A stretch of DNA of 44,352 nt from Candidatus Electrothrix aarhusensis (GTDB taxonomy: Bacteria; Desulfobacterota; Desulfobulbia; Desulfobulbales; Desulfobulbaceae): the NCBI GenBank assembly GCA_004028505.1, contig MTKO01000080.1, forward strand, positions 1 through 44,352, written 5' to 3'. The notes below the pieces were generated by a model. That model saw only the letters and a program-made list of their open reading frames with translations. It was not told the DNA's origin and did no database searches. Positions 1 to 40,550 of the stretch are shown here, piece after piece. Positions within the stretch are counted from its first letter, which is position 1, and the number at the start of each line of letters is the position of its first letter. The position numbers were made by a program, and so were the translations under genes.

Positions 1-1814
1 TTTTTCGTATTCTTTATTAATGCGGCGGCGCAGGGAACCGATGACTTCTCCATTTTTTTTATAGTTGGCTTCAGTCAAAGCACGGGTTCCGTCGGGATTT
101 TTGGCATAGCTGCGATAGAGTTCGTAAAGCGTGAAGGAGAGCAGGGGTAGGGCACCGGGGGTCTGGAGCACCTCGTTGATCAACGTGTCAATCAGCGTCC
201 GGGGTTCAAAATAGAGCACTTTGGCCGAAGCAGGCTCTTCAATAACCTCCCGTAGCTCGTCCTGGGTCATGGGACGCACTATGAATCGATGCGCCCTCTC
301 CCAATCGCCCTGCCAGAAGTCGAGCTGAGAAATTTGAGATTCAAAATCGGAACGTAAGGTAAGTACGATGCGCAATATTTCGCTGTGGTCTTCCTGAGTC
401 TGTTTCAGTTCCCGGATAAAGGCACCCCGCTTTTCCTCGTGTCGGCATAGGGTAATGAGTTCTTCAAACTGATCAATGACCAGCAGGAGTTTTTGACCCG
501 GATTTTTCCCGGCCCATTGATCGATGAGCTTGGTGAGCGAGATGTTTTTTTCCCGTACTGCACTGACACCGGGCAGCTCCCTGATAAGCAGAGAATGCAA
601 TGTCGGCAGCGGGTCGGCTCCGGGCCGCATTATTTCTTGCGGAATGAACCAGGAAGATGCTTGATCTTCACCGCTTTCTCCCGCTCCTTTTTTTGCCTCC
701 TTTTCCAAGGTAGGCAGCAGGCCCGCCTTGACCAAACTGGACTTGCCCGTACCGGAGGCACCCAGCACCACGATAAACGGCTGCTCCTCCACCTGCTTTT
801 TTAATTCTTCAATCAGGGTAGTGCGACCGAAGAACAGCTCGCTGTCGCCTTTTTCATACGGAGACAGCCCCTTGTAGGGATTGTTTTGTTCGGTCAGATC
901 AGGAGCCGGAGGCAGGTCGAGTTCATACCCCGGCACCAGGAAGATAAATTCACCATGCTCATGTTTGTTGAGGGGCCAGAGTCCGGGCGTCTGGCGATGA
1001 TCGGCCAGTTTTTCAGCCGGTACTTCAACCTCATCTCGGAGATAGAGATACAGTTCCGTGGCTGTGATAACGCCGTCACCGTCTTTCGGGGCTGTATCGG
1101 CGGCACCGTGCAGGGCCTCGAACAGGGCCAGGGCAAAGGGCGAGTGCTGCTGTTCCTGCTGCTGCGCAACGCCGTGTTCTCCCCGTATATTGCCGGAGAG
1201 AATGTCCAGGGCCTTCTGATCATAAGATGCAGAGGTGAGCACCTGCCAGGCCGCATCGCGGATAAAACGATCATAGCGCTCCTTGTAAATCACCTGCGGC
1301 AGCGGTTGAAAATCACGCTTGCTGGACCAGCGGAAGGCTCCGGCAAAGCAGCAGTCGAGGATCGCGAGCATGTGTCGGCAGGGGAGTGCTTCCAAGGCAT
1401 TGTGCAGCTTGGTCATGGCCCAGAAAGTGGAGCTGTCCTCCCGCTTGGCATCCTGAGGGATCAAAAAACCGGCAGGTCCGTCATCCCCGTCTGTCGCGAT
1501 CCGTGCCCGGCAAAATAGACCAGCAGGCGGTCATTCTCAGTAATTTTCTCGGGAAGTTTTTTTGTAAATTCCTTTTCAAGGCGGGCTAGTGTCGCCTTCT
1601 CATCGGTAAGCAGAGTGACTTCATAGCCGTGCTCTTTTTTCAGTATCTTTGCCAACGCACAAGCGTCATTCACTGCTGTGCTCAGGGGAGGAATGCCCTT
1701 GCTGTATTTATCTATCCCGATAACGACAGCGATACTGCGTTTAAATACTGAAGAGGTTGATTTGTCGGCAGACTTGTTGCCCAGAATCAGGCCGCGTTCT
1801 GTTGTGTCCGTCAT
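1..1814 (-). CDS. Caspase-like peptidase / STAND ATPase (partial, one frame break)
   Basis: The gene starts at the ATG at 1814, with an AGGAGG ribosome site 8-9 bases upstream, and runs off the window start. The N-terminal caspase (peptidase C14-like) domain shows the catalytic His motif YFAGHG and Cys motif LDCCFAGAF. A DGDG-x-ITATEL EF-hand-like stretch follows, then the NPYKGLSPYEKGDSELFFGR boundary typical of novel STAND NTPases, Walker A GASGTGKSS and Walker B LLLVIDQFEE. The reading frame breaks near 1501, just after GHG, where a premature TGA appears at 1461-1463. Adding one base to the C run restores an open frame all the way to position 1. It is closely similar to the gene at 3121-7652 over the whole visible length, so the two are tandem paralogues. 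Any WD40 or other sensor would lie outside the window. Family assignment is firm; the biological role (regulated proteolysis, cell death or defence) is inference. Confidence 0.85.
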
Positions 1815-1922
1815 GATATTGCTCCTCCTTTTTCAATGGCTCTTGTTACGTTGTGGTATTATATGTCATGAAAAACGGAAAAACAATTTGGTAACTATGG
1901 CAGCGAGGCAAAAGAGGCTTGG

Positions 1923-2069
1923 GTGCTGATACTGCCAACCTTTGTCCCGCCCCTCTTTTTGATTATTGGCATCCTTATTGCCAATGCGACTCGTGAGGCA
2001 GACGCTGATGAAATTGTGACTATTGATCGTTTTTTCTCTTGTCTTTCTGAATTCCTCTCCGTTGTCTGA
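1923..2069 (+). CDS. Possible 48-codon membrane peptide
   Basis: In the 278-base gap between two minus-strand genes, the plus strand has a short open frame starting at GTG 1923. An AAGAGG sequence lies 5 bases upstream. The peptide begins with a hydrophobic, proline-containing segment (LILPTFVPPLFLIIGILIA) that could span a membrane, followed by a charged stretch. No family is recognised. It could equally be the remnant of a longer gene, since the frame upstream is open to a stop at 1868. A competing minus-strand frame covers the same bases. Support is weak. Confidence 0.2.
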   Translation: MLILPTFVPPLFLIIGILIANATREADADEIVTIDRFFSCLSEFLSVV

Positions 2070-2092
2070 ATTGTGCTCTAACTGCACCTCGT

Positions 2093-3019
2093 TCATTTTT
2101 CCGCTTCATCTATCTTGCTGCGCAATCGTTCCATGCTTGTGGTACGCCAGCCGACCTCTTGTTGCAATCGCTGGATCTCTTCTTCGGAGTCTGTTTTTTT
2201 GATACGGGCTTCAATGGCCTTGATTTGTTCGACCATGATCTCGTATCTGGAGTGCATGTTATCAATTGATTCCGCTTCGTCGGCCTTATCAAAGATGACA
2301 GAATCCATAGCTAAATCATCGATTGAATGCTGTTCGTCGGTCTCAGGGATGATTTGTTTTTTTGGCGAAAGGGTCCGTGTGAACATGAAGGTCGGGGAAA
2401 CGATTTCTATCTCCGCATGATGCAAGGCATCAAGGATGTTCTCACGTAGCTTTGATCGGGTCGCCAGGAATTTCTTGACGTTTTTCAAGATTCCGGCAAC
2501 CCGATATTCTACTGAGTAGTCACCAAGATGAGCGACTTGGACAAAAGGCTCTTCAAGCGGAACCTCTGCTGCGGCCTTGGTCAGCAGGTTTTTTACCTGA
2601 GCATGGGGCACATCATATCCCAGGGAAACAGTCGCAGAAATAACTGTTTTCTCCTTGCGAACAACCTTGCAGGGATTGGTGAGCAGGTAAAGATTCGGCA
2701 ATGTTGTCAAGTCACTGTCTTCTGTTTGAATCTCCGTATGAAGCAGCCCCCTCACTGTCACTTTACCAAAGTATTTTCCTACGCTCAAAAAATTGCCGGG
2801 GCGGAATCTGGAGATACTGGAGAGCATTATTCCGGCCATGAAATTGCTGATAAAGGTGGTGGAGGAGATGGCAATAGCAGCACTGATGATAATACCGAAA
2901 AAGGTGAGCAGAATTTCGGAGGTTCCCTTGTCAGGGGAAAACCGCAGGATGATGAACGGCGTTAATAAAAGAAGAACTGGTACGGCTATATAAATGCCTT
3001 TTCGTATTTTTTCGTCCAT
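2093..3019 (-). CDS. MscS-family mechanosensitive ion channel
   Basis: This 308-residue protein has two N-terminal membrane segments (about residues 9-28 and 34-60). The second runs into the MscS pore and beta-domain signature: SNFMAGIMLSS, then FRPGNFLSVGKYFGKV, then a TTLPNLYLLTNP segment matching the family's 'T.PN' motif. The C-terminal third is charged and probably a coiled coil (about 255-305). MscS proteins open under membrane tension to release solutes. This is a minimal two-helix form with an added coiled coil. The ATG at 3019 follows a good GGAG site. It lies 101 bases downstream of the caspase/STAND gene at 3121-7652 and upstream of its paralogue, all on the same strand, so co-transcription is plausible. 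A role as membrane-permeabilising partner of the caspase/STAND proteins is inference. Confidence 0.85.
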   Translation of the reverse strand: MDEKIRKGIYIAVPVLLLLTPFIILRFSPDKGTSEILLTFFGIIISAAIAISSTTFISNFMAGIMLSSISRFRPGNFLSVGKYFGKVTVRGLLHTEIQTEDSDLTTLPNLYLLTNPCKVVRKEKTVISATVSLGYDVPHAQVKNLLTKAAAEVPLEEPFVQVAHLGDYSVEYRVAGILKNVKKFLATRSKLRENILDALHHAEIEIVSPTFMFTRTLSPKKQIIPETDEQHSIDDLAMDSVIFDKADEAESIDNMHSRYEIMVEQIKAIEARIKKTDSEEEIQRLQQEVGWRTTSMERLRSKIDEAEK

Positions 3020-3120
3020 AATTTTGTCTCCTATAGAATGATGAGCGGAAGATTATTCTTGTTGCGCCTGTGCCCATTCCAGCACTTGGTCGAATTTGGT
3101 TTGGCCAGCCGAGTGAACGA

Positions 3121-6100
3121 TTACCGTTCATTCTCGGCCAAGGCATTTTCTCCATCTAATGCCTTTATCAGCGACTCGGCTTTGTTCAGCAATTCGTTTA
3201 CATCGGCAGGCCAAATCCTGATCTCTGGATAGCCGACTAAAATCCATTTGCCGTCAGGACTCCAAGTTGCTCTGGCAAAAGTCTCAACGTCCAAGTTATA
3301 GCGGGCCATTTCTCGCCCAGTTTCTGCATCCCAGATTCTTACGGTGCCGTCTGAACTGCTTGTCAGTACCCTATCTCCCTTGGGGCTCCATTCTGCTGTA
3401 CTGACCCACGATTCATGCCCGGCAAGAAGAAGGGTTTTGCCGGTTTTATGATTTGTGATCCTTACTTCATTGGAGTGTTGATTCCCTTTTGGAATGTTAG
3501 AATACCACTCTTCCAGCTTGATTCGGAGTACGCAGGGATAGTTAATTCCCTATTTAACCAAAATAATTCTTTTTTCCCGTCTGGGCTTATTGGATCTGGA
3601 AGCAAGTCTTTTAAATTGACAGTTGGAGCACCAGGATTTTCTTTCATACTCCCATCCCCCCAAGACCAACCGTATGTATTCCAGCTTCTTGTTGTTTTAT
3701 TCCAAGTTATTAAAGGAAGACTAGACTCGTCGTGCGGTTTTGATTCTTCATGGCCATGAAAATGACGATTTATAGCAACATTTATCCTTTTTCCATCTTT
3801 TGAAAAAAAAGCTGTTGACAGGTCGTATCTATCATTTGGAATAGCTAGGCTCTCCTTGGCATCCCAACCATTGAGGTTCCATAACGGTTTAATTTCCCAT
3901 ATTAACGCACTGGACGCCCAGAAAAAATCTTCGATACCTGTTCCTACAGAAGCAAGAGCATTGCTATCAGGTCGCCAAGAAAGTGCTGATACAGCAGTTG
4001 TATGTCCATACATTGTTCGTAGCAATTTTCCATCTTCTGCGCTCCAGATGCGTATAGCTACATCGTTACAAAACTCCCCATTAATATCGGAAAAACAGTA
4101 ACCGTGTCCAGTTGCAATAAATCTTCCATTCGGGCTGAGCGTAATTTTATTGCCATCCGCTGAATATTCTATTGGTATTTCATCTTCTTTTAACCTGAAA
4201 TTCAGGTCTGATTCTTCCTTTATTTCGAGTAATAGAATTTTTCTCTCACTTGTATGATCAAAAAATCCTTCTTTGATAATAAGAAAAAGAGATTTGTTTT
4301 TATTGAAGAGGCATTCAAAATAAACTATATTCCAATCGTTATTAATTTTATGTGTAAATACTATGTCATTTTTATCTAACGAATAAATATTAATATTTTT
4401 TTTATCTGCAAAGTATATATATTTATTATTTTTGCTAAATGAAAGTCCAATTGATTCTTCATGTATATCTATCCCGTCATCCAGTATGAGTTTTTCTATA
4501 TTTGAAATATATAATTTTTTATTGTTATAAATTGCCACCTTTGTTCCTGTTGTATTGCATACACTAATGCCTTTGCTGTCACTGATTAATTTTGGATGAC
4601 TCATATTGTCAAGATTAAATAAATGAATAGAGTTTCCGCCGCTGATAAAGAAACGAGAGCTTCCGCACCAGCTAATTGACCAATTTTCTGGCCTTTCCTC
4701 AGGGAGATAGTCTTTGTTTTTTATTTCTTCAATTTTCTGCTTAGTAAATTGATCCCATGCTACCACCTCGCCGTATTCACTGATTGCCGCTAGATATCTT
4801 CCGTTAGGACTCCACTCAATAGAAACTATTTTACCTGTTGTAGCAGGAAGAAAGTTTTTCCATAACGGTGCTGTATTAACGGCTTTGTATAAGGCATCAA
4901 AAGATTCACGCGTAACGTATTTATCCCTCGTTAAAGTTTTTAAAACACTCTTTCTGGCTAATCGAAGAGGCTCTGTGAAAAAAGGGGCGTTCATTTTGTC
5001 CCTGCTAACTCCGTAAGTCTCCCAATCATGAAATATTTTATCTGTATTACTTGATATAGATTCTGATCTTGCGGCTAATTGCACGGCTTCGACTCGGCGA
5101 AGATTTGCTTCAGCTCTTTCTTTTTCGATGATGGCAAATTTCTTCTGCTTTTCCGAAGAAAACCAAAAGATAACAGCAAACGTAAGTAATATGACTGCAA
5201 CTGCTGCTCCAATTCGTGCAGCTTTGGTTTTGCCCCGTTGTGCCAACGCAGTTTCTTCAGCTGCCTTTTGGGCCTTTTCCGCTTCTTCTTTTGCTTTTTC
5301 TAATGCTTCCTTCTCTCGCCGCGCCTGATCCTCCTTTTCCTGCTTTTCTTTTTCGTCCAGCTTATGTGCGGCCTGCAAGAATGCCTGCTCCAGTTCATTC
5401 AGGAATAAGCGATCATTACTGGACAATTCTTTCGTCTGCTGGAGGCGACTGTCCCAGCGTGGTAGACTGCCGGTCTTTCTGCCGTTCTTCTCCCAATCCG
5501 CCGCAGCCCGTGTCAGCTGCCTCTGCAAGAGCATGGCTTCGGCCTCTTCAGCTCGCCATTTGAGCAGTTTGTCCCAGGCAACAATCAGGGCATCATGGGC
5601 CGGTTCAACGTAGGGGTCGGTTTTCCCCTTGGAGGTTTCGCTTTTCCCGCCGACAATCAGGCGTACCTCAAGGAGTCGGTCAAGAATTTTTTCCACCCGT
5701 TCCTTTTCCGCCGCATCAGGATAATCAAGCTCCCATCTTGGTACCCGTCTGCGTGTTACCTCTCCTCCCTCAAAGGCGACCATGCGCAGTAGGATACGCT
5801 TCATGGTCGCCTGATGGTCAGTATCAAATTTTTTATATTCCTGATCAATACGCTGCCGCAACGAGCCAATGACCCCGCCAATATCCTCGTAATCATATTC
5901 GGTCAGGGCACGGTTGCCGTCCTGGCGTTCAGGATCCTTCTGCCGTTCCACATAAAGGCGATACAGCTCGCTGAGGGTGAAGGAGAGCAAGGGCAGGGCA
6001 CCGGGAGTCTGGATGACCTCGTTAATCAGCCGATCCACCAGCTCGCGGGGCTCGAAATAGAGCACCATGACCGAGGCCGGTTGCTCAATGACCTCGCGCA

Positions 6101-7652
6101 GTTCGTTCTGAGTCATGGGCGGCACCACGAAACGGTTATCCTCCTGCCACCAGTCCTTGAGATAGTTTTGGGAAATCTGGGCTTCAAAATCAGAGCGCAG
6201 GGTAAGCACGATGCGGAGCACCTCTCTATGCTCTTCCAGAGCCTGCATCAGTTCGCCGATAAAGTCTTCCCGCTCCTGCTCCTCCTGACAGAGGGTGATG
6301 ATTTCTTCAAACTGATCAATGACCAGCAGCAGTTTTTTACCGGGATTTTTCTTGCACCATTGCCCGATCAGTCCGGTAGCTGTGGAACCTCTCTCTCGTT
6401 CAGGCCGTACACCGGGCAGTTCTGTGATAAGCAGGCTGCGCAGTGCTGCTGCCGGATTTGTGCCGGGCCGCAGAATTTTTTCCGGAATGAACCAGGAAAA
6501 ACCTTGAACCGCATCAACCTCTTTTTCAGATCTATCTGAATTATTTTCTAGCGCAGGCAATAGCCCTGCCTTGACCAGACTGGACTTGCCTGTGCCCGAG
6601 GCCCCCAGCACCACGGTGAAGGGTTGCTCTTCGACCTGCTGGTGCAGTTCTTTGATCAAATCAGTACGCCCGAAAAAGAGTTTGCTGTCGCCTTTTTCAT
6701 AGGCGGACAGGCCCTTGTAGGGATTGTTTTCTTCAGTCAAATCAGGAGCGGGCGGAAGATCAAGCTCATGATCCGGCAGCAGAAAGATGAATTCTCCCTG
6801 CCTGTGTTTGTTGAGGGGCCAGAGTCCGGGCGTCTGGCGGTGATCAATCAGCTGTTCGGCATTGACCTCCACCTGATCCCGGAGATAGATATAGAGTTCG
6901 GTGGCGGTGATGATGCCGTCGCCGTCTTTGGGTGTAGAATCAGCGGCTCCGTGCAGGGCCTCGAACAGGGACAGAGCAAAGGGCGAGTGCGGCTGTTCTT
7001 CATCCTGCGCGACGCCGTGCGTTCCCACCACATAGCCGGACAGGGTGTCCAGAGCCTTCTGGTTATAGGCCGCCGAGGTAATCACCTGCCAGGCCGGATC
7101 GCGGAGAAAGCGTTCATAGCGTTCCCGGTAAATAACAGAGGGCAGAGGCTGGAGGTCACGAGTGCTGGACCAGCGGAAGGCTCCGGCAAAACAGCAGTCC
7201 AGGATAGCCAGCATATGCCGGCAGGGCAGATCGTCCAGGGCCTTATGGAGCTCGGTCATGGGCCAGAAGCTGTCCTCAGCCAGCGTGGCATCCTGGGGAA
7301 TCAGGTATCCTTCAGGGCCGTTTTCGCCGTCCAAGGCGACCCCGTGCCCGGCAAAATAGATCAGCAGACGGTCGTTTGGGTCGATCTGTTCGGGGAGCTC
7401 CTCTTCAAAGACGGCTTGCAGGCGTGAACGGGTGACTTCTTCGATCAGCAGGGTGATGCTGTAGTCATACTGCTCTTCCAGTATCTGCGCCATTCTGCGG
7501 GCATCATTACCTGCCGTGGCCAGCGGAGAAATACCGTTGCTGTATTGGTCTATGCCGATGATGATGGCAAGGTTGCGTTTAAATTCTAAAGATTTGGATT
7601 TATCCGCAGATGCTTTCCCAAAGGTCAAGCCGCGTGTTGTTGAATCTGTCAT
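3121..7652 (-). CDS. Caspase-like peptidase - STAND ATPase - membrane segment - WD40 protein (one frame break)
   Basis: The repaired protein is about 1510 residues. Residues 25-290 form a caspase-like peptidase with His103 (YFAGHG) and Cys154 (LDCCFAG), and a degenerate EF-hand-like DGDG-x-ITATEL. The STAND linker (NPYKGL..LFFGR, about 310-329) precedes Walker A GASGTGKSS (350-358) and Walker B LLLVIDQFEE. A long charged coiled coil (about 745-810) leads to one membrane helix (about 812-832). The rest holds WD40-type repeats, recognisable by WSPNGRYLA, LSPNGRFIA and IRIW motifs. The frame stops at 3462-3464, but the next frame continues WD40 sequence (TVRIWDAETG, WSPDGKWILV) to the TAA at 3121. 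One base added to the C run at 3484-3486 joins them. No clear ribosome site precedes the ATG at 7652; the start matches the paralogue's. STAND proteins oligomerise on sensing a trigger, so WD40 would sense and caspase would execute. This role is family inference. Confidence 0.9.
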
Positions 7653-7751: not shown

Positions 7752-9608
7752 ATGATCAAATTGAAAAAGTACATTCCGAGATTCCTCTCAGCAGGGATAA
7801 AATTATCAGCGATTCATTTTTTTAAACTACAGATATCCGGTATGAAGTTGTCCAGAATTTCTCTTCGTGCGTATCTGGTTCTTATGAATTCGGTACTGCT
7901 CTGTCTTCTCTATCCCTTACTGACAGTTATTTTTATAGGGAAAACAACGGAATTTCGTGATGAGCATTTACGAAAAAATATCACCGCGATGCGAGAGTCC
8001 ATGAAAAATCGCAGTGCCGCTTTGGTACGAAGTATTGGCCTGAGTGTGGGGCAGGCAGCAGCAGGTTATGATTTCACCTTTCTTTCTGATCTGATGGCCG
8101 AAGTGGTAAAGAATGACGAGGAGATGGTCTATTGTCTGGTTATGGATCAGGAACGGCAGGTTCTGGCCCATCCTGATAAAAATAAGTTAGGGACACGTCT
8201 GGACGACGCAATGGCGCGGAGAAACACCAAGCAGCTGTGGCCGGTTTTCCCAAAAACCTTTCCTGACGAGCAGTCCTTGGAGGTTTTTTTTCTGGAAGAA
8301 AAGGATGCCCTCGGAAATACATCACTTTTGGAGGTGATTCTTCCCGTGTACACCGGAGAGAGACTTTGGGGGATCTTGCGTTGTGGTTATACTATGCATT
8401 TTTTGAATAGTAAAATGATCCATGAACATCTTCGTTGGGATAGGCAGATACACGACATGAAAGCGTATTTCATTACTATGATGGGTTTTTTTTTCTCAAT
8501 CTCTGTTTTTATCGCTGTGCTCTTCACCCGGCCCTTGCTGCGTTCCCTTGATGTCCTGAGACGAGGAGTGCATCTGGTGCGTGATGGTGATCTTGAGCAT
8601 GAGATCAGGAAAGATTTGGTCTGTAATGAGTTTGCCGATTTGGCAGACTCATTTAATAGTATGACCAATAGTCTCAGGGGCAGCCGAAAGGATTTAGCTG
8701 ACTACAATAAATCCCTTGAAAAGAAGGTGAATGAGCGCACCCAAGAGCTTAAGGAAGCACAAGATATTATGATTCAGCAGGCCCATGAGGCAGGGATGGC
8801 TGAAATGGCTGTCGGGGTGCTTCATAATATCGGCAATGCTATTACCCCGGCGAAAATCAGCGCAGCTACATTAATCACTCGTCTGAAAAAAAGTCCGTTA
8901 CGGAACAATTTGGCGCAGGTTTTACATTCGTTACGGGATATATTGGAGTCTTCCCATGACTGTGTTGGCGACCGGAGCAAACGAATGCAAAAGATCATTC
9001 AGCTCATTCCAGAATCCATTGCTGAAGAGTACGGACAAGTAGAAACCGCATTGCAACAAATTTGCGATAAGCATAATCATATCGAAGATATTATCCGTCT
9101 GCAAAGGCAGTATGCCCGCGTTCCCATGAGAGAAGCACAGCATCTTGATATCAATCGGGTAGTTCAGGACGCTTTGAACATGTTTCAGGAGTCGTTGCAA
9201 CAGCGAGACGTAAAAGTGGAACGAGCGTTTCAGGATGTTCCTATGGTGCGACTTGAGGAAGTGCATTTTTTACAGATCCTTGTCAATTTGATTAAAAATA
9301 GTTACGAATCCTTTGATGGGGGTAATGTAAAAAATAAAAAGATAATATTATCTTCCTTTTTAGAGGGTAAAGAGCCACATGATGTGATATTCTCGATTCA
9401 AGATAATGGCTGTGGCTTCACGGAGAAAGACAAGGAAAACTTTTTTCGTTTCGGCTACAGCACCAAGGCCAGAGGCTCGGGATTTGGCCTTCACTCCTGC
9501 GCCAATTATCTCATCGCCAACAACGGTTCCATTGACGCCGTCAGTGCCGGTCCTGGTATGGGCTCCGAGTTTATCCTACGCTTACCGACTGACACCTCCC
9601 CGGAATAA
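7752..9608 (+). CDS. Membrane sensor histidine kinase
   Basis: This 618-residue protein has a membrane helix at about residues 38-62, an extracytoplasmic sensor region, and a second helix at about 237-260. A HAMP-like linker and a coiled coil follow (KSLEKKVNERTQELKEAQ). The H-box is the variant VLHNIGNAITP, with the phospho-accepting His at about 358. The N-box is NLIKNSYE (about 513), with G1 DNGCGF and G2 GSGFGLHS, so the ATPase domain is complete. It has no receiver domain. The gene is 23 bases upstream of the hybrid kinase at 9632 and probably forms an operon with it, pointing to a shared signalling route. The sensor's ligand is unknown. The chosen ATG has a weak AGGG-like site; an internal ATG at 7842 is possible but lacks a site. 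Confidence 0.88.
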   Translation: MIKLKKYIPRFLSAGIKLSAIHFFKLQISGMKLSRISLRAYLVLMNSVLLCLLYPLLTVIFIGKTTEFRDEHLRKNITAMRESMKNRSAALVRSIGLSVGQAAAGYDFTFLSDLMAEVVKNDEEMVYCLVMDQERQVLAHPDKNKLGTRLDDAMARRNTKQLWPVFPKTFPDEQSLEVFFLEEKDALGNTSLLEVILPVYTGERLWGILRCGYTMHFLNSKMIHEHLRWDRQIHDMKAYFITMMGFFFSISVFIAVLFTRPLLRSLDVLRRGVHLVRDGDLEHEIRKDLVCNEFADLADSFNSMTNSLRGSRKDLADYNKSLEKKVNERTQELKEAQDIMIQQAHEAGMAEMAVGVLHNIGNAITPAKISAATLITRLKKSPLRNNLAQVLHSLRDILESSHDCVGDRSKRMQKIIQLIPESIAEEYGQVETALQQICDKHNHIEDIIRLQRQYARVPMREAQHLDINRVVQDALNMFQESLQQRDVKVERAFQDVPMVRLEEVHFLQILVNLIKNSYESFDGGNVKNKKIILSSFLEGKEPHDVIFSIQDNGCGFTEKDKENFFRFGYSTKARGSGFGLHSCANYLIANNGSIDAVSAGPGMGSEFILRLPTDTSPE

Positions 9609-16749: not shown

Positions 16750-18437
16750 TCATCCTTTCTTCTGCATCTTCGCCCAGCTATCCCGCAGAGTAACAATGCG
16801 GTTAAAGACCGGCTTGTCCGGGCTGCTCTCCTTACTGTCCAAGCAGAAATACCCCTGCCGCTCAAACTGTACCCGATCCTCCAAGCTTAGTTCCGCCAAC
16901 GAGGGCTCCAGGATACTATTCGCTAGAATCTGACAGGAATCAGGATTCAAGAACTCCTTAAAATCCTTTTCCTTGTCCGAGTCCGGGTTTTCCACGCTGA
17001 AGAGCCGGTCATAGAGGCGTACCTCTGCCGGGATGCCGTGCTTGGCCGAAACCCAGTGGATGGTGCCCTTGACCTTGCGTCCGTCCGGGGCCGAACCTCC
17101 GCGAGTCTCAGGATCATAGGTACAGTGCAGCTCAACGACCTCGCCGTTCTCATCCTTGATGGCCTTGTCGCAGGTGATCAGGTAGGCGTAGCGCAGGCGT
17201 ACTTCCCGACCCTCGGTGAGCCGGAAAAACTTCCTCGGCGCATTCTCCAGATAGTCGGCGCGTTCAACATAGATCTCCCGGCTGAAGGGAACCTTGCGGG
17301 TGCCATGTCCGGATTCTGGGGATGGTTCTGCGCTTCCAGTTCTTCTTCCTGCTCTTCCGGGTAATTGGTGATCACGATCTTGAGTGGGTTGAGCACGCCC
17401 ATGACTCTGGGTGCATCGACGTTCAGGTCATCGCGCACTGAGTTTTCCAGCACGCCCATGTCGATCCAGGAATCACGCTTGCCCACCCCGATGGTATCGC
17501 AGAAATTACGGATGGAGGCGGGGGTATAGCCGCGCCGCCGCAGGCCGGAGATGGTCAGCATCCGGGGGTCGTCCCAGCCGTCCACATGGTTTTCTTCGAC
17601 AAGTTGGAGCAGCTTACGCTTGCTCATCACGGTGAAGTTGATGTTCAAGCGGGCGAACTCGTACTGGCGTGGGCGGCAGGGGGTGGCCAGGGTATCCAGA
17701 ACCCAGTCGTAGACAGCCCGGTTGTTTTCAAACTCCAGGGTGCAGATGGAATGGGTGATCTGCTCGATCATGTCGGACAGGCAGTGGCAGAAATCGTACA
17801 TCGGGTAGATGCACCAGGTGTCACCGGTGCGGTGGTGATCCTTGTTCATGATCCGGTAAATGGCCGGGTCGCGCATGATCATATTGGGCGAGGTCATGTC
17901 AATCTTGGCCCGCAGGGAGCAGGTGCCTTCGGCCAGTTCGCCGTTCTTCATCTGCGCAAACAGGGCAAGGTTTTCCTCTACCGAGCGGTCACGGTACGGG
18001 CTGTCCTTACCCGGCTCGGTCAGGGTGCCCCGGTATTCGCGCATATCGTCCGCGTTAAGGTGGCAGACATAGGCCTTGCCCATTTTGATCAGCTGGACCG
18101 CGAATTCGTGGAGTTGGTCAAAATAATCTGAGGAAAAATGGAGATGCTCGCCCCAGTCAAAGCCCAGCCAGCGCACGTCTTTCTGGATGGCGTCCACGTA
18201 TTCGGTGGATTCCTTGCCTGGATTGGTGTCGTCAAAGCGGAGATGGCAGACCCCGTTGTTCTCCTTGGCAATGCCGAAGTTCAGGCAGATGGACTTGGCA
18301 TGCCCGATGTGGAGGAAGCCGTTGGGTTCCGGGGGGAATCGGGTGACGATGTTGCTGTGCTTGCCGGACTTGAGGTCTTCGGCGATGATTTGGCGGATGA
18401 AGTCTAGGGGTTTGGCTGGGGTGTCGATGTTTGTCAT
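16750..18437 (-). CDS. glnS: Glutaminyl-tRNA synthetase (one frame break)
   Basis: This class I synthetase attaches glutamine to tRNA-Gln. The repaired protein is 562 residues, close to the 554 of E. coli. It shows HIGH at 43-46 ([15 protein letters not shown]), the KMSKS equivalent as VMSKRK, and the C-terminal anticodon-binding beta-barrels ending GYFCLDSK and VTLRDSWAK. The frame breaks near 17303, after NHPQNPDM. The other frame continues [17 protein letters not shown] and stays open to the TGA at 16750. One G added to a GG pair restores family-like sequence. As this enzyme is essential where it replaces the GatCAB route, a sequence error is more likely than true loss. The last part is duplicated at 16022-16100. 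Confidence 0.93.
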
Positions 18438-19928: not shown

Positions 19929-21650
19929 TTACATTGCCTGAAACACCCGGAACCCCTGATTACCGAAACAGTAGATCACAAATTTAGAAATCTCCGCCTT
20001 AGGATATTCCGCACGTAACCCCTCGGCATAGCCATTAATCTGCTCTGTATCCTCAATTCGTACCTGGAAATCCTCAATGCTTGTCTTCATCTTCCTCAGC
20101 TCAGTATTGGAAAAATACTTGAATTCAACTACCCAGCGCAGGCCCGCATATTTTTCATTATACTTGCCCACAAATTCCAGATCGCTTCGCCCCTGGGGAT
20201 AGGAACGCTCCACATGCCAGACAAACCAGCGGGAAAGAAAACGGCTGCACAGTTCGTAAAAGGTGGTGCGGTAGAAGTTTTCATTCACCTGCTGAAAGAT
20301 AGCCTCGGGCAGCTGGGAAACATACTCCTGCCAATACCCGGCAAAAAGCTGTTCCAGGTCGGGCTTGTTGGCAAAGGCCTGCATGATCTCGGCATAGCGG
20401 GTGGATACGTCGATATGATGAATTTCATTAAAATATTGAACAAAGATGGTGCGCATGTTCATATTGGGCAGGCAGAGGAAAAAATCATCCTTGCGGGTCA
20501 GCATGCCGAGGTAAAAAAAGGAGATCGGAAAAAAGGAGGGTTCAAAAAACTGGTACATATTGAATTTCTCAACCAAAAAAGTATCGTCATAGGCAATACT
20601 GTTGTGCAGGGTCAGGCGATCAACAAATTCCTCGGTCAGGGCCGGGTTAGAGGCGGTCAGACGGCGTACCCAAGAAATATCAGTTTTGAGGTTGAGGTCG
20701 GTCAGGTGCTTGGGGATAGTTTTGTGATTCTGGAGCCAGTTGAGGAAATAGAGCACCGAGGTTGAATTATAGAGGCTTTCTCCGTCATCGGTGATGAGCT
20801 GGTAGCCGTTGTACTGGTTTTTCATCAGCGTACCCACCTCGGAACGGGTGGTTGGATCAAGATTCTGGTCTTGAAAGACCGCATCGACTAGGGTGTCTGT
20901 TTCGGCTTGGGTGAAGCCCAGCATGTTTTCAAATCGAGGATCCAAAGTCAGAAAGGTAGCCACGTTAAAACCCGAGGCCATATCATCCATAGTGATAGGT
21001 AACACGCCAGTGATAAAGACATTGGAGATGCTCTGCGTTTCCCGGCCCTGCTTCAGAATCTTGAAAAAGGTTTTGAAAAAGCCGTTGTCCGCTGTTAATT
21101 CCCGGTAAAGCTGATCCTTATTGGCTGTGACCAGCTGATTGGCAAAATTATCGTATTCATCAATGATGATGTACAGCGGCGGCAGCTGGTGATCATGCAG
21201 GTAGCTGAGCAGCCTGCCCAGGCAGTCCGACACCGGATCATCGGTGTCAATCTCCGGCATATCCTTGAGCAGAGCATATTTATTGCGCATATACTTGATC
21301 AGATAATTGCAATGCACCTTGAAGCTGCGCTCAATAGCACCAAGGGTTTTTCCTGGTTCGATAACGGAAAAATTCAGGTGCAGGATAAAGCAGCTGTTCT
21401 GTTTGCCGGTCGGGTGCTGTCCTATCCAGGTATGGCCGAAGAGTTCGCTGAAGCGGCCTGCTGTATTGAGGTCGTAATAATGGTTAAGGAGAGAGCAGAG
21501 CAGGGATTTGCCAAAGCGGCGCGGCCGGAGGAAGACAGGGTTGTTCACCTGCTCCAACTCAGCAAGCCAAGAGGTTTTGTCGACAAAATAGCCATTCTTT
21601 TCCACTAGCTCAGCGTAGTTGGCAATGCCGTAGAGGATGCGTTTTTTCAT
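19929..21650 (-). CDS. AAA-ATPase-like / PD-(D/E)XK nuclease-like protein
   Basis: This 573-residue protein belongs to the widespread AAA-ATPase-like plus DUF1703 type. The N-terminus (GIANYAELVEKNGYFVDKTS) leads to a Walker A-like RPRRFGKSLL and Walker B YIIIDEYDNFA. The C-terminal 150 residues form a PD-(D/E)XK-like nuclease, with the D...E-x-K pattern in RSDLEFVG and WVVEFKYF. Such proteins occur in many copies in gut and sediment bacteria. Their role is unknown, though a mobile or defence link is often suggested. It is the last gene of a run DUF445 - aspartic protease - this gene, 9 bases after the protease stop, so it may be translated from that transcript. Confidence 0.88.
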   Translation of the reverse strand: MKKRILYGIANYAELVEKNGYFVDKTSWLAELEQVNNPVFLRPRRFGKSLLCSLLNHYYDLNTAGRFSELFGHTWIGQHPTGKQNSCFILHLNFSVIEPGKTLGAIERSFKVHCNYLIKYMRNKYALLKDMPEIDTDDPVSDCLGRLLSYLHDHQLPPLYIIIDEYDNFANQLVTANKDQLYRELTADNGFFKTFFKILKQGRETQSISNVFITGVLPITMDDMASGFNVATFLTLDPRFENMLGFTQAETDTLVDAVFQDQNLDPTTRSEVGTLMKNQYNGYQLITDDGESLYNSTSVLYFLNWLQNHKTIPKHLTDLNLKTDISWVRRLTASNPALTEEFVDRLTLHNSIAYDDTFLVEKFNMYQFFEPSFFPISFFYLGMLTRKDDFFLCLPNMNMRTIFVQYFNEIHHIDVSTRYAEIMQAFANKPDLEQLFAGYWQEYVSQLPEAIFQQVNENFYRTTFYELCSRFLSRWFVWHVERSYPQGRSDLEFVGKYNEKYAGLRWVVEFKYFSNTELRKMKTSIEDFQVRIEDTEQINGYAEGLRAEYPKAEISKFVIYCFGNQGFRVFQAM

Positions 21651-30883: not shown

Positions 30884-32463
30884 ATGATGTCTGGTGGAGA
30901 AAATTTAAAGCGTATACTTGATCAGATTTGTCGAGATAAAGGCATTGATCGTACATTACTGGTGGATGCCATTGAAGAAGCTGTGCGGTCCGCAGTGCGA
31001 AAAAAATTCGGCGGTCGACGTGATATAGAGGTACAGTTCAACGAAGAACTCGGTGAGATTGAGGCCTTTCAATATCGCACAGTGGTTGACGATGTTTGGG
31101 ATGAGGATACCGAAATCCATATCGACGACGCAAGAGTGCTTGACCCAGATATCGAACTTGAGGATGATCTCGGTGAAAAGATGGAGAATATTGCTGAGCT
31201 CGGTCGCATTGCAGCACAGTCGGCCAAGCAGGTTATTATTCATCGACTGAGAGACGCGGAACGAGAAGTTATTTTTGAGATGTTCCGAGATCGGGAAGGC
31301 TCCATAGTCAACGGTATTGTGCAGCGTTTTGAACGCGGAAAGATGGTCATCAATCTTGGTCGAACCGATGCCGTGTTACCGCGTGAAGGGCAGATCCCTA
31401 AACGATCCTTTAAACAGGGCGATCGGATTCGAGCTTACTTGCAGGAGGTTCGGCAGGAGTCTCGTGACTCCCAGCTGATCTTGAGTCGAACCTGTAATGA
31501 ATTTTTAATTAAATTATTTGAGCTCGAAGTGCCGGAAATCGCCGAGCAGATTGTGAAAATCATGGGTGCTGCCCGCGAGCCGGGATTTCGTGCGAAAATT
31601 GCCGTTACCTCAACGGAATCCGATGTGGACCCGGTAGGTGCCTGTGTGGGCATGAAAGGTGCCAGGGTACAGAATGTGGTGCAGGAGCTTCAGGGAGAGC
31701 GTATTGATATTGTGCCCTGGAGTCCAGATCCGGCGAAATACGTCTATAATGCCTTGGCACCAGCCGAAGTGAGTATGGTGATCGTTGATGAAGAGCAGCA
31801 TTCCTTGCTGGTCGTTGTCCCGGATGACCAGCTGTCATTGGCCATAGGTCGGCAGGGACAGAACGTTCGGCTCGCCTCCCGTCTACTGAGCTGGCGTATT
31901 GATGTAAAGAGTGAACAACGCTATGAGAATCTCGCAAGTCGGGATATAAGAGTCTGTTGGTCATTGACGGGGTTGATGAGGCAAAAGCGGATAAATTGGT
32001 TGCGGCCGATATACATTCAGCAAGGGACTTTGCTGAAGCTGATATTGAAAGTATTATGCGATTTGTCGGTGTCAGTGAAGATCAGGCTGCTGTTCTGAAA
32101 CTCCAGGCTGCGGATATCCCCGTGATAGCAGACAGCCCTCTGGATGAAGCAGAACGTCTTTTTTCCACACCGGTTGAGCAGGCTGAAGAAATATCGGGCG
32201 ACGCATCGGATGACGAATTGGGCAACAGGATCACTGATGACGAGTCTGTGCCTCAGCAGGCTGTGAATGACGACGAAGAAGATGAAGTAATGCCTGGAAA
32301 TACGGTTGAACAGGAAGATCTGCCTGAAAATATTCCAGCGCAACCTGCCCAGGAGCAAGGGCAGGAGATTATGCCTGGAAATGTTCCAGAGCAACCTGCT
32401 CAGGATCAGGAGATTTTGTCCCCGCAGGAGCAGGACACTGTAGATGGTAACAGACTGTCATGA
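30884..32463 (+). CDS. nusA: Transcription elongation/termination factor NusA (one frame break)
   Basis: NusA binds RNA polymerase and controls pausing, termination and antitermination. The repaired protein is 526 residues: N-terminal polymerase-binding domain, S1 domain (GSIVNGIVQRFERGKMVINL), and KH domains (DPVGACVGMKGARVQNVV; LAIGRQGQNVRLASRL). A helix-hairpin-helix repeat follows (VIDGVDEAKADKLVA; MRFVGVSEDQAAVLK). The frame breaks near 31950, where the first frame leaves NusA-like sequence; one added base gives RSLLVIDGVDEAKA. The last 110 residues form an acidic Gln/Pro/Glu-rich tail with a duplicated MPGN-(T/V)-(V/P)-EQ motif, poorly conserved in the family. Confidence 0.94.
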
Positions 32464-38314: not shown

Positions 38315-38459
38315 TTCCATATTTTAAATTATCAAGCTGAAAAAAAATAATACAAAGATCCGACTGGCGGGTCTGAGAAGAAATACTGTCCCGAGCAGGT
38401 AACGTAGTTGCTCAAAAAATGTGAATGCAGCCGGGATAGCTGAACGCAAAGGAGTTTGC

Positions 38460-40550
38460 ATGTATACAAAGAAAGAAGTCGAAATCGGTGGGCGCTGTAT
38501 GTCCTTTGAGACCGGCAAGATAGCAAAACAAACCAGTGGTTCCGTTGTGGTAAACTGCGGCGATACCATGGTTCTTGTCACCGTGGTTGCAGATAAAGGG
38601 ACAAAAGATGCTGGCTTTCTGCCCTTGACCATTGAATACCAGGAGCGAATGTATGCTGCCGGACGTATTCCGGGCAATTATTTTCGCCGTGAAATCGGTC
38701 GTCCTTCGGAAAAGGAAATATTGACCTGCCGACTTATTGACCGTCCTTTGCGCCCGCTTTTCCCCAAAGGGTATATGTCCGAGACCCAGGTGATTGCAAC
38801 AGTCTTTTCAGCTGACCAGGAGATTGACCCGGATATTTTGGCTATGAACGGTGCCTCTACGGCACTTTCCATTTCCGATGTACCGTGGGCAGGTCCTATG
38901 CTGCCGCCAGAGTCGGTTATGTTAATGATGAGTATATCTTGAATCCTACAGCGAGCCAGCTGGAAAAATCCTCCATGAACTTGATAGTTGCCGGAACCGA
39001 GGCCGCTGTAGTTATGGTGGAAGGTCGGACGGGCGAGTTGAGTGAAGAGATTATTCTTGAGGCGATCTTTTTTGCCCATCAGGAGATTCAGCCGCTCATC
39101 ACCATGCAGAAGGCTTTGCAGGAAGAGATCGGCAAGAAGAAACGGGAAGTTGTTGCTCCTCAGGTTAACGAGCCTCTGAAGGCAAAGGTTGCGGAAGCCG
39201 CTGCTGCCGGAATGGATGAGCTTGTTACAATTGCTGGCAAGATTGAACGCAGTGCCCGCTATGACAGCCTGAAAGACGAGGTCCTTGCTGCCATTGATGA
39301 GGAGCTGTACGAGAGCGAAAGGGAAGTTTTCGATGTGCTGGGCGCATATAAGAAAACTATCATGCGCGATCGGATTGTTAATAAGGCTTACGCCTGGATG
39401 GCCGGAGCTTTGATCAGGTCCGCCCCATTGAGTGTGAAGTCGGGGTTCTGCCAAGGCGCATGGTTCAGCACTGTTCACCCGAGGTGAGACCCAGGCTCTG
39501 GTTGTCGGTACTTTGGGATCTGAGCGTGATGAACTGCATGTAGAGAGCCTGAAAGGCGATACCTACCGTCGCTTCATGATGCATTATAACTTTCCTCCCT
39601 TTTGCGTGGGCGAGGCTCGCTTCATGCGCGGTCCCAGCCGTCGTGATATCGGGCACGGTACCCTTGCTCGACGAGGTATGGAAACGGTGTTGCCTGATGC
39701 AGCTGATTTTCCGTATACCATGCGCGTGGTTTCAGAGGTCCTGGAATCCAACGGTTCTTCCTCTATGGCCACGGTCTGCGGGGCAAGTCTTGCTCTGATG
39801 GATGCTGGTGTGCCCATCAAGGCCCCGGTTTCCGGTGTTGCTATGGGCTTGATCAAGGAAGGTGACAAGGTGGTTGTGCTCACTGATATCCTTGGTGATG
39901 AGGATCATCTCGGTGACATGGACTTCAAGGTTGTGGGCACGGCTGAGGGTATTTCTTCGCTCCAGATGGATATCAAGATTGACGGGGTTGATCGGGAGAT
40001 TATGTCCAGCGCTTTGGCACAGGCCAAAGAGGGACGTCTCCATATTCTGGGCAAGATGGAAGAGGCTCTCGGCATTCCGCGAGAAAATGTTGCTGAGCAT
40101 GCGCCTAAGTACGTCACCATAAAGATCAATCAGGATAAGATTCGTGATATCATCGGGCCGGGCGGTAAAGTGATCCGGGAGATGACAGCGGAGTTTGATT
40201 CCAAAATTGATGTGGATGATGACGGGACTATTAAGATCTTCTCCAAGAGCACAGAATCTGCTGAGGCTCTGGTGGCTCATATTGAAGGCATGACAGCTAT
40301 GCCCGAGATCGGCAAGATCTATAACGGTCTGGTGAAGACCATTAAGGATTTTGGTGCCTTTGTGGAAATTCTGCCCGGCACGGATGGAATGGTTCATATC
40401 TCCGAGCTGGCTGCGGAACGAGTGAATAAGGTGACTGATGTCTTGCAGGAAGGCGAACGGGTCAATGTCAAGGTTGTTGATGTTGACGGGCGCGGGCGCA
40501 TCCGCTTGAGCCGTAAGGCTGCTCTGGCGGAAGAAGGGTCAGAGGCGTAG
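38460..40550 (+). CDS. pnp: Polyribonucleotide nucleotidyltransferase (three frame breaks)
   Basis: PNPase is the phosphorolytic 3'-5' exoribonuclease of RNA decay. With three single-base additions the gene encodes 697 residues, a normal length. The breaks are near 38899 (restores [15 protein letters not shown]), 39385 (restores [20 protein letters not shown]) and 39459 (restores [17 protein letters not shown]). The first RNase PH domain, helical linker and second RNase PH domain ([17 protein letters not shown]) are followed by KH ([15 protein letters not shown]) and S1 ([17 protein letters not shown]). AAAGGAG lies 6 bases before the ATG at 38460. The three losses together return to the first frame. 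Confidence 0.95.

Follow-up and report, generated by a model that had tools for sequence, protein, structure and literature searches.

The 44,352-nucleotide stretch considered here (the window) is the entire contig MTKO01000080.1 (C66) of the 3.73-Mb draft genome of Candidatus Electrothrix aarhusensis (143 contigs; 89.78% complete). At its left end, two genes that each join a caspase-like protease to an nSTAND1 ATPase lie on the minus strand on either side of an MscS-type channel gene (2093..3019, minus strand; 308 amino acids; PF00924). The longer of the two (copy 2; main open frame 3462..7652, minus strand; 1,396 amino acids) encodes a caspase domain (residues 26-277, 6822..7577; PF00656, E = 4.7e-19, 69.4 bits), an nSTAND1 NTPase with the Walker A motif GASGTGKS (residues 311-727, 5472..6722; PF20703, E = 1.2e-106, 358 bits), a sole transmembrane (TM) segment predicted by hydropathy with a basic N-side flank (residues 814-832, 5157..5213) and C-terminal WD40 repeats (PF00400, 38.5 bits). 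Beyond its stop, translation shows WD40 repeats running on in a second frame (3121..3495, minus strand; PF00400, E = 9.9e-13, 48.4 bits) and a tail motif following in a third; the stop at 3462 is therefore probably not the natural end of the gene. Copy 1 is in two pieces on the same strand: a 5' piece with the caspase His motif that ends in a stop after a frame break (1461..1814; PF00656, E = 1.1e-12), and a second piece in another frame that carries the Cys motif and nSTAND1 and leaves the contig at its end (1..1464; PF20703, E = 3.9e-73, 247.7 bits). The two copies share 71% protein identity across the long piece of copy 1, and their kinship is thus not a matter of chance. A sequence-only reading of the window had already recognized two related caspase–STAND genes in one orientation, which holds, since both are on the minus strand with PF00656 and PF20703 in each. 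It had also credited each gene with an intact His/Cys pair, which is true of copy 2 (His103 and Cys154, placed by alignments) but not of copy 1, where the pair is divided between two frames.

The missing half of copy 1 very probably lies on another contig of the same genome. Copy 1 meets the contig edge at the equivalent of copy 2 residue 608, and the end of contig C123 holds a minus-strand fragment (C123:12911-16135) whose start corresponds to residue 636 and which encodes the last part of nSTAND1 together with a TM segment and WD40 repeats (PF00400, 74.1 bits). This fragment is the only other match in the genome at 60% identity or more. Consequently, the TM segment and WD40 repeats that the sequence-only reading assigned to copy 2 are indeed there, but they would not be exclusive to it. 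Given the inferred join, this probable 3' portion of copy 1 stands beside a gene for a second caspase protein, hereafter X (C123:9428-12838), from which it is separated by 72 bp; the spacing between gene B and X in the sibling genome G003 is also 72 bp. Upstream of X lies a gene for a 180-amino-acid protein, which in G003, G005, G006 and G001 adjoins the histidine kinase gene that flanks copy 2 in the window (7831..9608, plus strand). Homology to these empty sites stops at about position 9180 of C123 and restarts at about 7831 of the window, two points that are approximately 81 bp apart in G003, G005 and G006. Therefore, about 15 kb is present at this site in the source genome, through insertion here or loss elsewhere. 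G007 has X alone before the kinase and so, by coordinates, does G004. The window locus would then be the right side of a present/absent island, about 15 kb long and spread over C123 and C66, with the probable plus-strand order of 180-amino-acid gene, X (+), copy 1 (-), MscS (-), copy 2 (-) and histidine kinase (+).

X comprises 1,136 amino acids, with a caspase at the N-terminus, a long middle region and, at the C-terminus, an α/β-hydrolase (PF24096, E = 2.8e-18) bearing an HSMGG motif. The middle region gave no Pfam match, and no PDB match fell between the caspase and lipase parts. When 30 cyanobacterial X proteins were combined into a profile and compared with solved structures, metacaspases scored best (2.8e-15) and lipases matched weakly (best, 0.0016). 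Viral contigs yielded just three loci with partial and weak matches to X. Within the genus, X occurs in six of eight genomes; G002 has a fragment of it, and in G001 it is split across two contigs. All three genomes with a close receptor also have X.

X, and not MscS, is the recurrent partner of the caspase–nSTAND1 receptor, and this is the stronger finding of the analysis. A genome scan with a caspase–nSTAND1 alignment returned 174 relatives, the best 80 of which resolved into 78 distinct loci (73 cyanobacterial, many of them presumably from filamentous genera, 4 from Chloroflexota and 1 from Desulfobulbaceae). By simple patterns, the His motif was found in 77 of these loci, the Cys motif in 78 and Walker A in 77. 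Clustering of the 689 open reading frames (ORFs) in the 78 loci, which excluded the 95 receptor ORFs and involved no further selection, placed X as the top neighbor family in 52 loci (48/73 cyanobacterial, 3/4 Chloroflexota, 1/1 Desulfobacterota); the second family reached 14 loci and all others six or fewer. A stricter rule based on hidden Markov models (HMMs) and domains retained X in 46 of 78 (44/73, 1/4 and 1/1, respectively). Forty-one of these 46 X genes lie upstream of the receptor on the same strand, four lie downstream on the same strand and one downstream on the opposite strand, with the hydrolase part visible in 35. Upstream sequence of 4 kb or more is available for 60 loci, of which 42 have X, directly upstream within 500 bp in 25 cases.

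A separate collection of 72,556 plasmid records showed the same association. Receptor matches (E ≤ 1e-60) occurred on four plasmids and X matches (E ≤ 1e-30) on nine, and all four receptor plasmids were among the nine. On three of them, X sits immediately upstream of the receptor, the matches being 398, 148 and 320 bp apart. On the Nostoc plasmid pNLP1 (L235:3491-12664), a single 3,057-amino-acid fusion protein unites both caspases, the hydrolase, nSTAND1 and a Peripla_BP_6 end. The plasmid that bears this fusion was typed as conjugative.

The protease–NTPase halves of the receptors are conserved and their sensor ends vary. Copy 2 and gene C of G003 share 86.7% DNA identity over 2,116 nucleotides, which falls to about 50% or less past nucleotide ~2250, and the GC content drops from 0.50-0.62 to 0.26-0.43 across most of the sensor. 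G003 has three long open copies (1,231, 1,597 and 1,814 amino acids), with a transposase between the first two that has perhaps truncated the first; X is also found among the three. A hydrophobic segment scoring at least 1.6 follows nSTAND1 in 65 of the 74 homologues with more than 150 amino acids in that region, and the N-side of the TM segment is the more positive one in 65 of 69. By the positive-inside rule, this charge distribution places the sensor probably outside the cytoplasm, which the Peripla_BP_6 sensor fits.

Taken as a whole, the evidence suggests a two-protein system of cell death or immunity, to which we would give about even odds (roughly 0.5). Its core would be a receptor anchored in the membrane, with the order caspase–nSTAND1–TM–variable C-terminal sensor (here WD40), together with X (caspase–middle region–α/β-hydrolase), housed in the ~15-kb island with MscS as a passenger. 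The sensor, probably extracytoplasmic, would bind a cue of infection or damage, upon which nSTAND1 would exchange nucleotide and oligomerize. Adjacent caspase domains might then activate each other and cut X or other targets, and the hydrolase of X, once engaged, could attack membrane lipids. The cell would be killed or arrested to the benefit of its kin in the filament. Tandem copies with a shared protease–NTPase half and different sensors may represent a small receptor repertoire. The broader suggestion of a cell-death or defense candidate, as in the sequence-only reading, is plausible from the domain content and from published families, as far as the available passages describe them (PMC3501461, PMC7159879).

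Several observations weigh against this interpretation. The join between C123 and C66 is itself inferred, with about 81 bp between the two contigs unseen, and X is convergent with the receptor in the source genome and so does not form one operon with it. The sole Desulfobacterota locus among the 78 is G001's own contig. Eleven of the 46 strict X matches show no hydrolase part, including the single strict match in Chloroflexota. The X matches of the three plasmids with separate genes extend no further than residues 649, 649 and 602 (26.4% identity for the third), and the fusion protein is the only one on the receptor plasmids in which the hydrolase is visible. No segment of that fusion passes the TM threshold, which argues against a universal membrane anchor. 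Within the genus, five of eight genomes are without a close receptor. PADLOC matches are mainly to one generic caspase model.

An alternative that we regard as doubtful, though worth real consideration, is that these genes serve housekeeping proteolysis, stress or developmental signaling in place of defense. The loci are mostly cyanobacterial, and the orthocaspase literature leaves function open in the passages available. On the other hand, the patchy distribution within the genus, the empty sites, the carriage on plasmids and the swapped sensors fit conflict genes better. Another scenario, in our judgment unlikely, has the receptor copies acting alone through their own caspase, with X belonging to a separate system that shares the same islands. 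This would accommodate observations that also speak against the two-protein proposal: X unaccompanied by a receptor in two genomes (G004, G007) and on five of the nine plasmids (among them Rhizobium and Deinococcus plasmids with other caspase genes nearby), and the absence of X under the strict rule from 32 of 78 loci or, among the 60 that have at least 4 kb of upstream sequence, from 18. It sits poorly, however, with X standing far ahead as the top neighbor family, with the single-protein fusion and with the presence of X on every receptor plasmid.

The broken frames raise the prospect that both copies are decaying and non-functional, which we consider improbable. Copy 1 is interrupted between its His and Cys motifs and copy 2 before its tail, and the single close caspase–nSTAND1 copy of G001 (L048:10161-15028) likewise has a frame break in its caspase domain, close to the break site of copy 1. 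However, other genes of the same contig, in the stretches 16750-18437, 30884-32463 and 38421-40550, seem equally broken, and G003 has its three long open copies. The pnp gene is divided among three ORFs matching consecutive parts of one model. The glnS gene ends about half-way along its model, and a separate ORF resembles its C-terminus by eye; nusA seems, also by eye, to continue in another ORF that has no family match. In view of these cases, the frame breaks carry less weight as evidence of decay, and the breaks in the caspase copies are probably assembly indels. Against an assembly origin, the compared neighboring orthologues are mostly intact, and the copy of G001 is broken as well.

The channel gene had been proposed, from position and strand, as a second, membrane effector of the caspase–STAND pair. 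It encodes an MscS-type protein (PF00924, 36.1 bits against a cut-off of 20.2; PF21082, 22 against 21) with two clear TM segments and a third overlapping one at 1.52 by hydropathy; E. coli MscS has three TM helices. The gene lies between the copies as reported, and the label "minimal" is arguable given its 308 residues and a C-terminal extension with weak coiled-coil-type matches only. An MscS HMM that recovered 18 of 18 homologue loci outside its training set found no MscS gene in any of the 78 receptor homologue loci, the stretch covered per locus varying with contig size. The examined receptor regions of G003 and G001 likewise have none. The outcome that the sequence-only reading had named as a refutation, no neighborhood conserved beyond this strain, is thus the one observed for the channel. 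In a sample of 395 genomes of the phylum, the receptor profile matched three at E ≤ 1e-25, full length in the source genome only, and the MscS query matched 14 at E ≤ 1e-15, with both together in one, the source genome itself. Receptor and X genes are absent from all four examined regions of close MscS homologues. Weaker MscS relatives are widespread (at E ≤ 0.001, they occur in 42 of 57 related genomes); a distant one lies about 31 kb off the receptor on its contig in G001, and another weak one is on contig C97 of the source genome, about 17 kb from a caspase fragment. Despite its place between the copies on the same strand with short gaps, a role for the channel as second effector is thus highly improbable in view of the 0/78 loci, the 1/395 genomes and the four regions without receptor and X, and the gene looks like a chance passenger. 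The two-protease arrangement singled out earlier is present in a different form, with the caspase–nSTAND1 receptor and X as the two proteases and the gene for the latter outside the window.

In caspase- and trypsin-like nSTAND–WD40 genes throughout the genus, a repeat of about 55 bp codes for the tail sequence KFDQVLEWA. Its 53-nucleotide core in the window (3059..3111, minus strand; 43/53 positions matching) corresponds to the tail motif beyond the stop of copy 2. The repeat pattern gave 34 matches across 8 of 8 genus genomes and none with a reversed control; at the DNA level, it was found in 8 of 40 family genomes and 2 of 14 genera. Such regions include L184, L185, L186, L187, L188, L189, L190, L192, L199 and L200. 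A further copy lies downstream in 10 of 18 examined regions, usually at a distance of 560-1,200 bp (73 bp in one pair), and the other eight have a single copy. Small genes that by eye resemble toxin-antitoxin pairs (VapBC, nucleotidyltransferase/HEPN, BrnT) often lie between the repeats, a pattern suggestive of cassettes captured at the 3' ends of receptor genes. The repeat frequently has a palindrome resembling GGGCGTTTCGCGAAACGCCC after it (L184, L187, L188, L190, L192), and this palindrome also occurs alone elsewhere. The MscS gene is the first past the repeat in the window and was considered as cassette cargo; no second repeat copy was found beyond it, the next best match being 25/53 positions (minus strand of 1-3300), and we therefore do not claim cargo status for it. 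Farther along the window, 19929-21650 encodes an AAA-ATPase_like/PDDEXK_9 protein (PF09820, PF08011), possibly a mobile or defense gene.

Caspase–STAND–WD40 proteins are already known, and the receptor–X pair has been glimpsed in the literature but, as far as we found, not described: open-licence titles, abstracts and passages yielded no description of it. In the passages available, metacaspase–NACHT–WD40 proteins are widespread, and one metacaspase occurs with a GDSL lipase and an amidase (PMC3501461); WD40 metacaspases form adjacent pairs, and α-type metacaspases lie between WD40 metacaspases (PMC2853523, section 7); caspase p20 appears among WD40 neighbors in Cyanobacteria (PMC5587647); and, of 473 orthocaspases, 67 have TM helices and 8 have Peripla_BP_6 (PMC8283722). 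The window copies share the order of caspase, NTPase and WD40 with metacaspase–NACHT–WD40 proteins and orthocaspases (PMC3501461, PMC8283722, PMC2853523): copy 2 has the dyad, the Walker A NTPase and C-terminal WD40, and copy 1 has the dyad across its two frames. The orthocaspase passages describe neither a caspase–α/β-hydrolase as recurrent partner nor cable bacteria, both of which are features here.

Other systems known to us through such passages resemble parts of the locus. In VMAP systems, the caspase always comes with a neighboring α/β-hydrolase gene (PMC7159879). These MoxR-vWA ternary systems and the present pair have in common a caspase, an α/β-hydrolase and multicellular hosts, whereas the VMAP hydrolase is a neighbor gene within a MoxR-vWA-VMAP system and the hydrolase here is fused to a caspase and stands beside a STAND receptor. 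Caspases are also linked to AP-ATPase genes, and the caspases with a bDLD3 adaptor are operon-linked to a STAND NTPase gene, which is a likeness to our locus (PMC8195603); those systems have the adaptor and an AP-ATPase, whereas nSTAND1 is fused here to its own caspase. The two-gene EACC1–caspase system (PMC7159879) combines, as here, a constant caspase, variable C-terminal domains and membrane association. It differs in that the partner here is X and in that the NCBIfam model caspase_w_EACC1 scores below its cut-off of 140 (66.9 bits for copy 2, 36.8 for the second piece of copy 1). Other known defense models gave weak mad8/mad3 matches and, in the sensor of one cyanobacterial receptor, HEAT-ARM_XIII at 209.8 bits; the NCBIfam Avs4 model scored 14.5 bits against a cut-off of 1500 in the second piece of copy 1. 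STAND sensors diversified by diversity-generating retroelements (PMC10907252) belong, in multicellular bacteria, to nSTAND1/NACHT receptors whose C-terminal sensors vary, as here; in those systems, retroelements change CLec sensors, whereas entire sensor segments differ here. The Apaf-1 apoptosome, described in part in PMC7159879, offers a comparison of working principle only, a STAND NTPase with a WD40 sensor driving caspase activation. Apaf-1 is of the AP-ATPase clade, whereas the receptor here is nSTAND1 with the caspase in the same chain and a predicted TM helix.

To conclude, the analysis redirects attention from a coincidental channel to the recurrent partner X. It is possible, and we offer it tentatively from domain architecture and gene neighborhoods, that cyanobacteria and cable bacteria share a recurrent new receptor system, in which a transmembrane NLR-like receptor with exchangeable outside sensors would assemble an apoptosome-like ring whose caspase releases a membrane-destroying caspase–lipase executioner. 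If the two-protein proposal is true, caspase activation by a STAND receptor would be linked to a fused lipase in one gene pair common to distant lineages, and this pair would serve as a bacterial analogue of the apoptosome that can be tested and whose second effector is defined.

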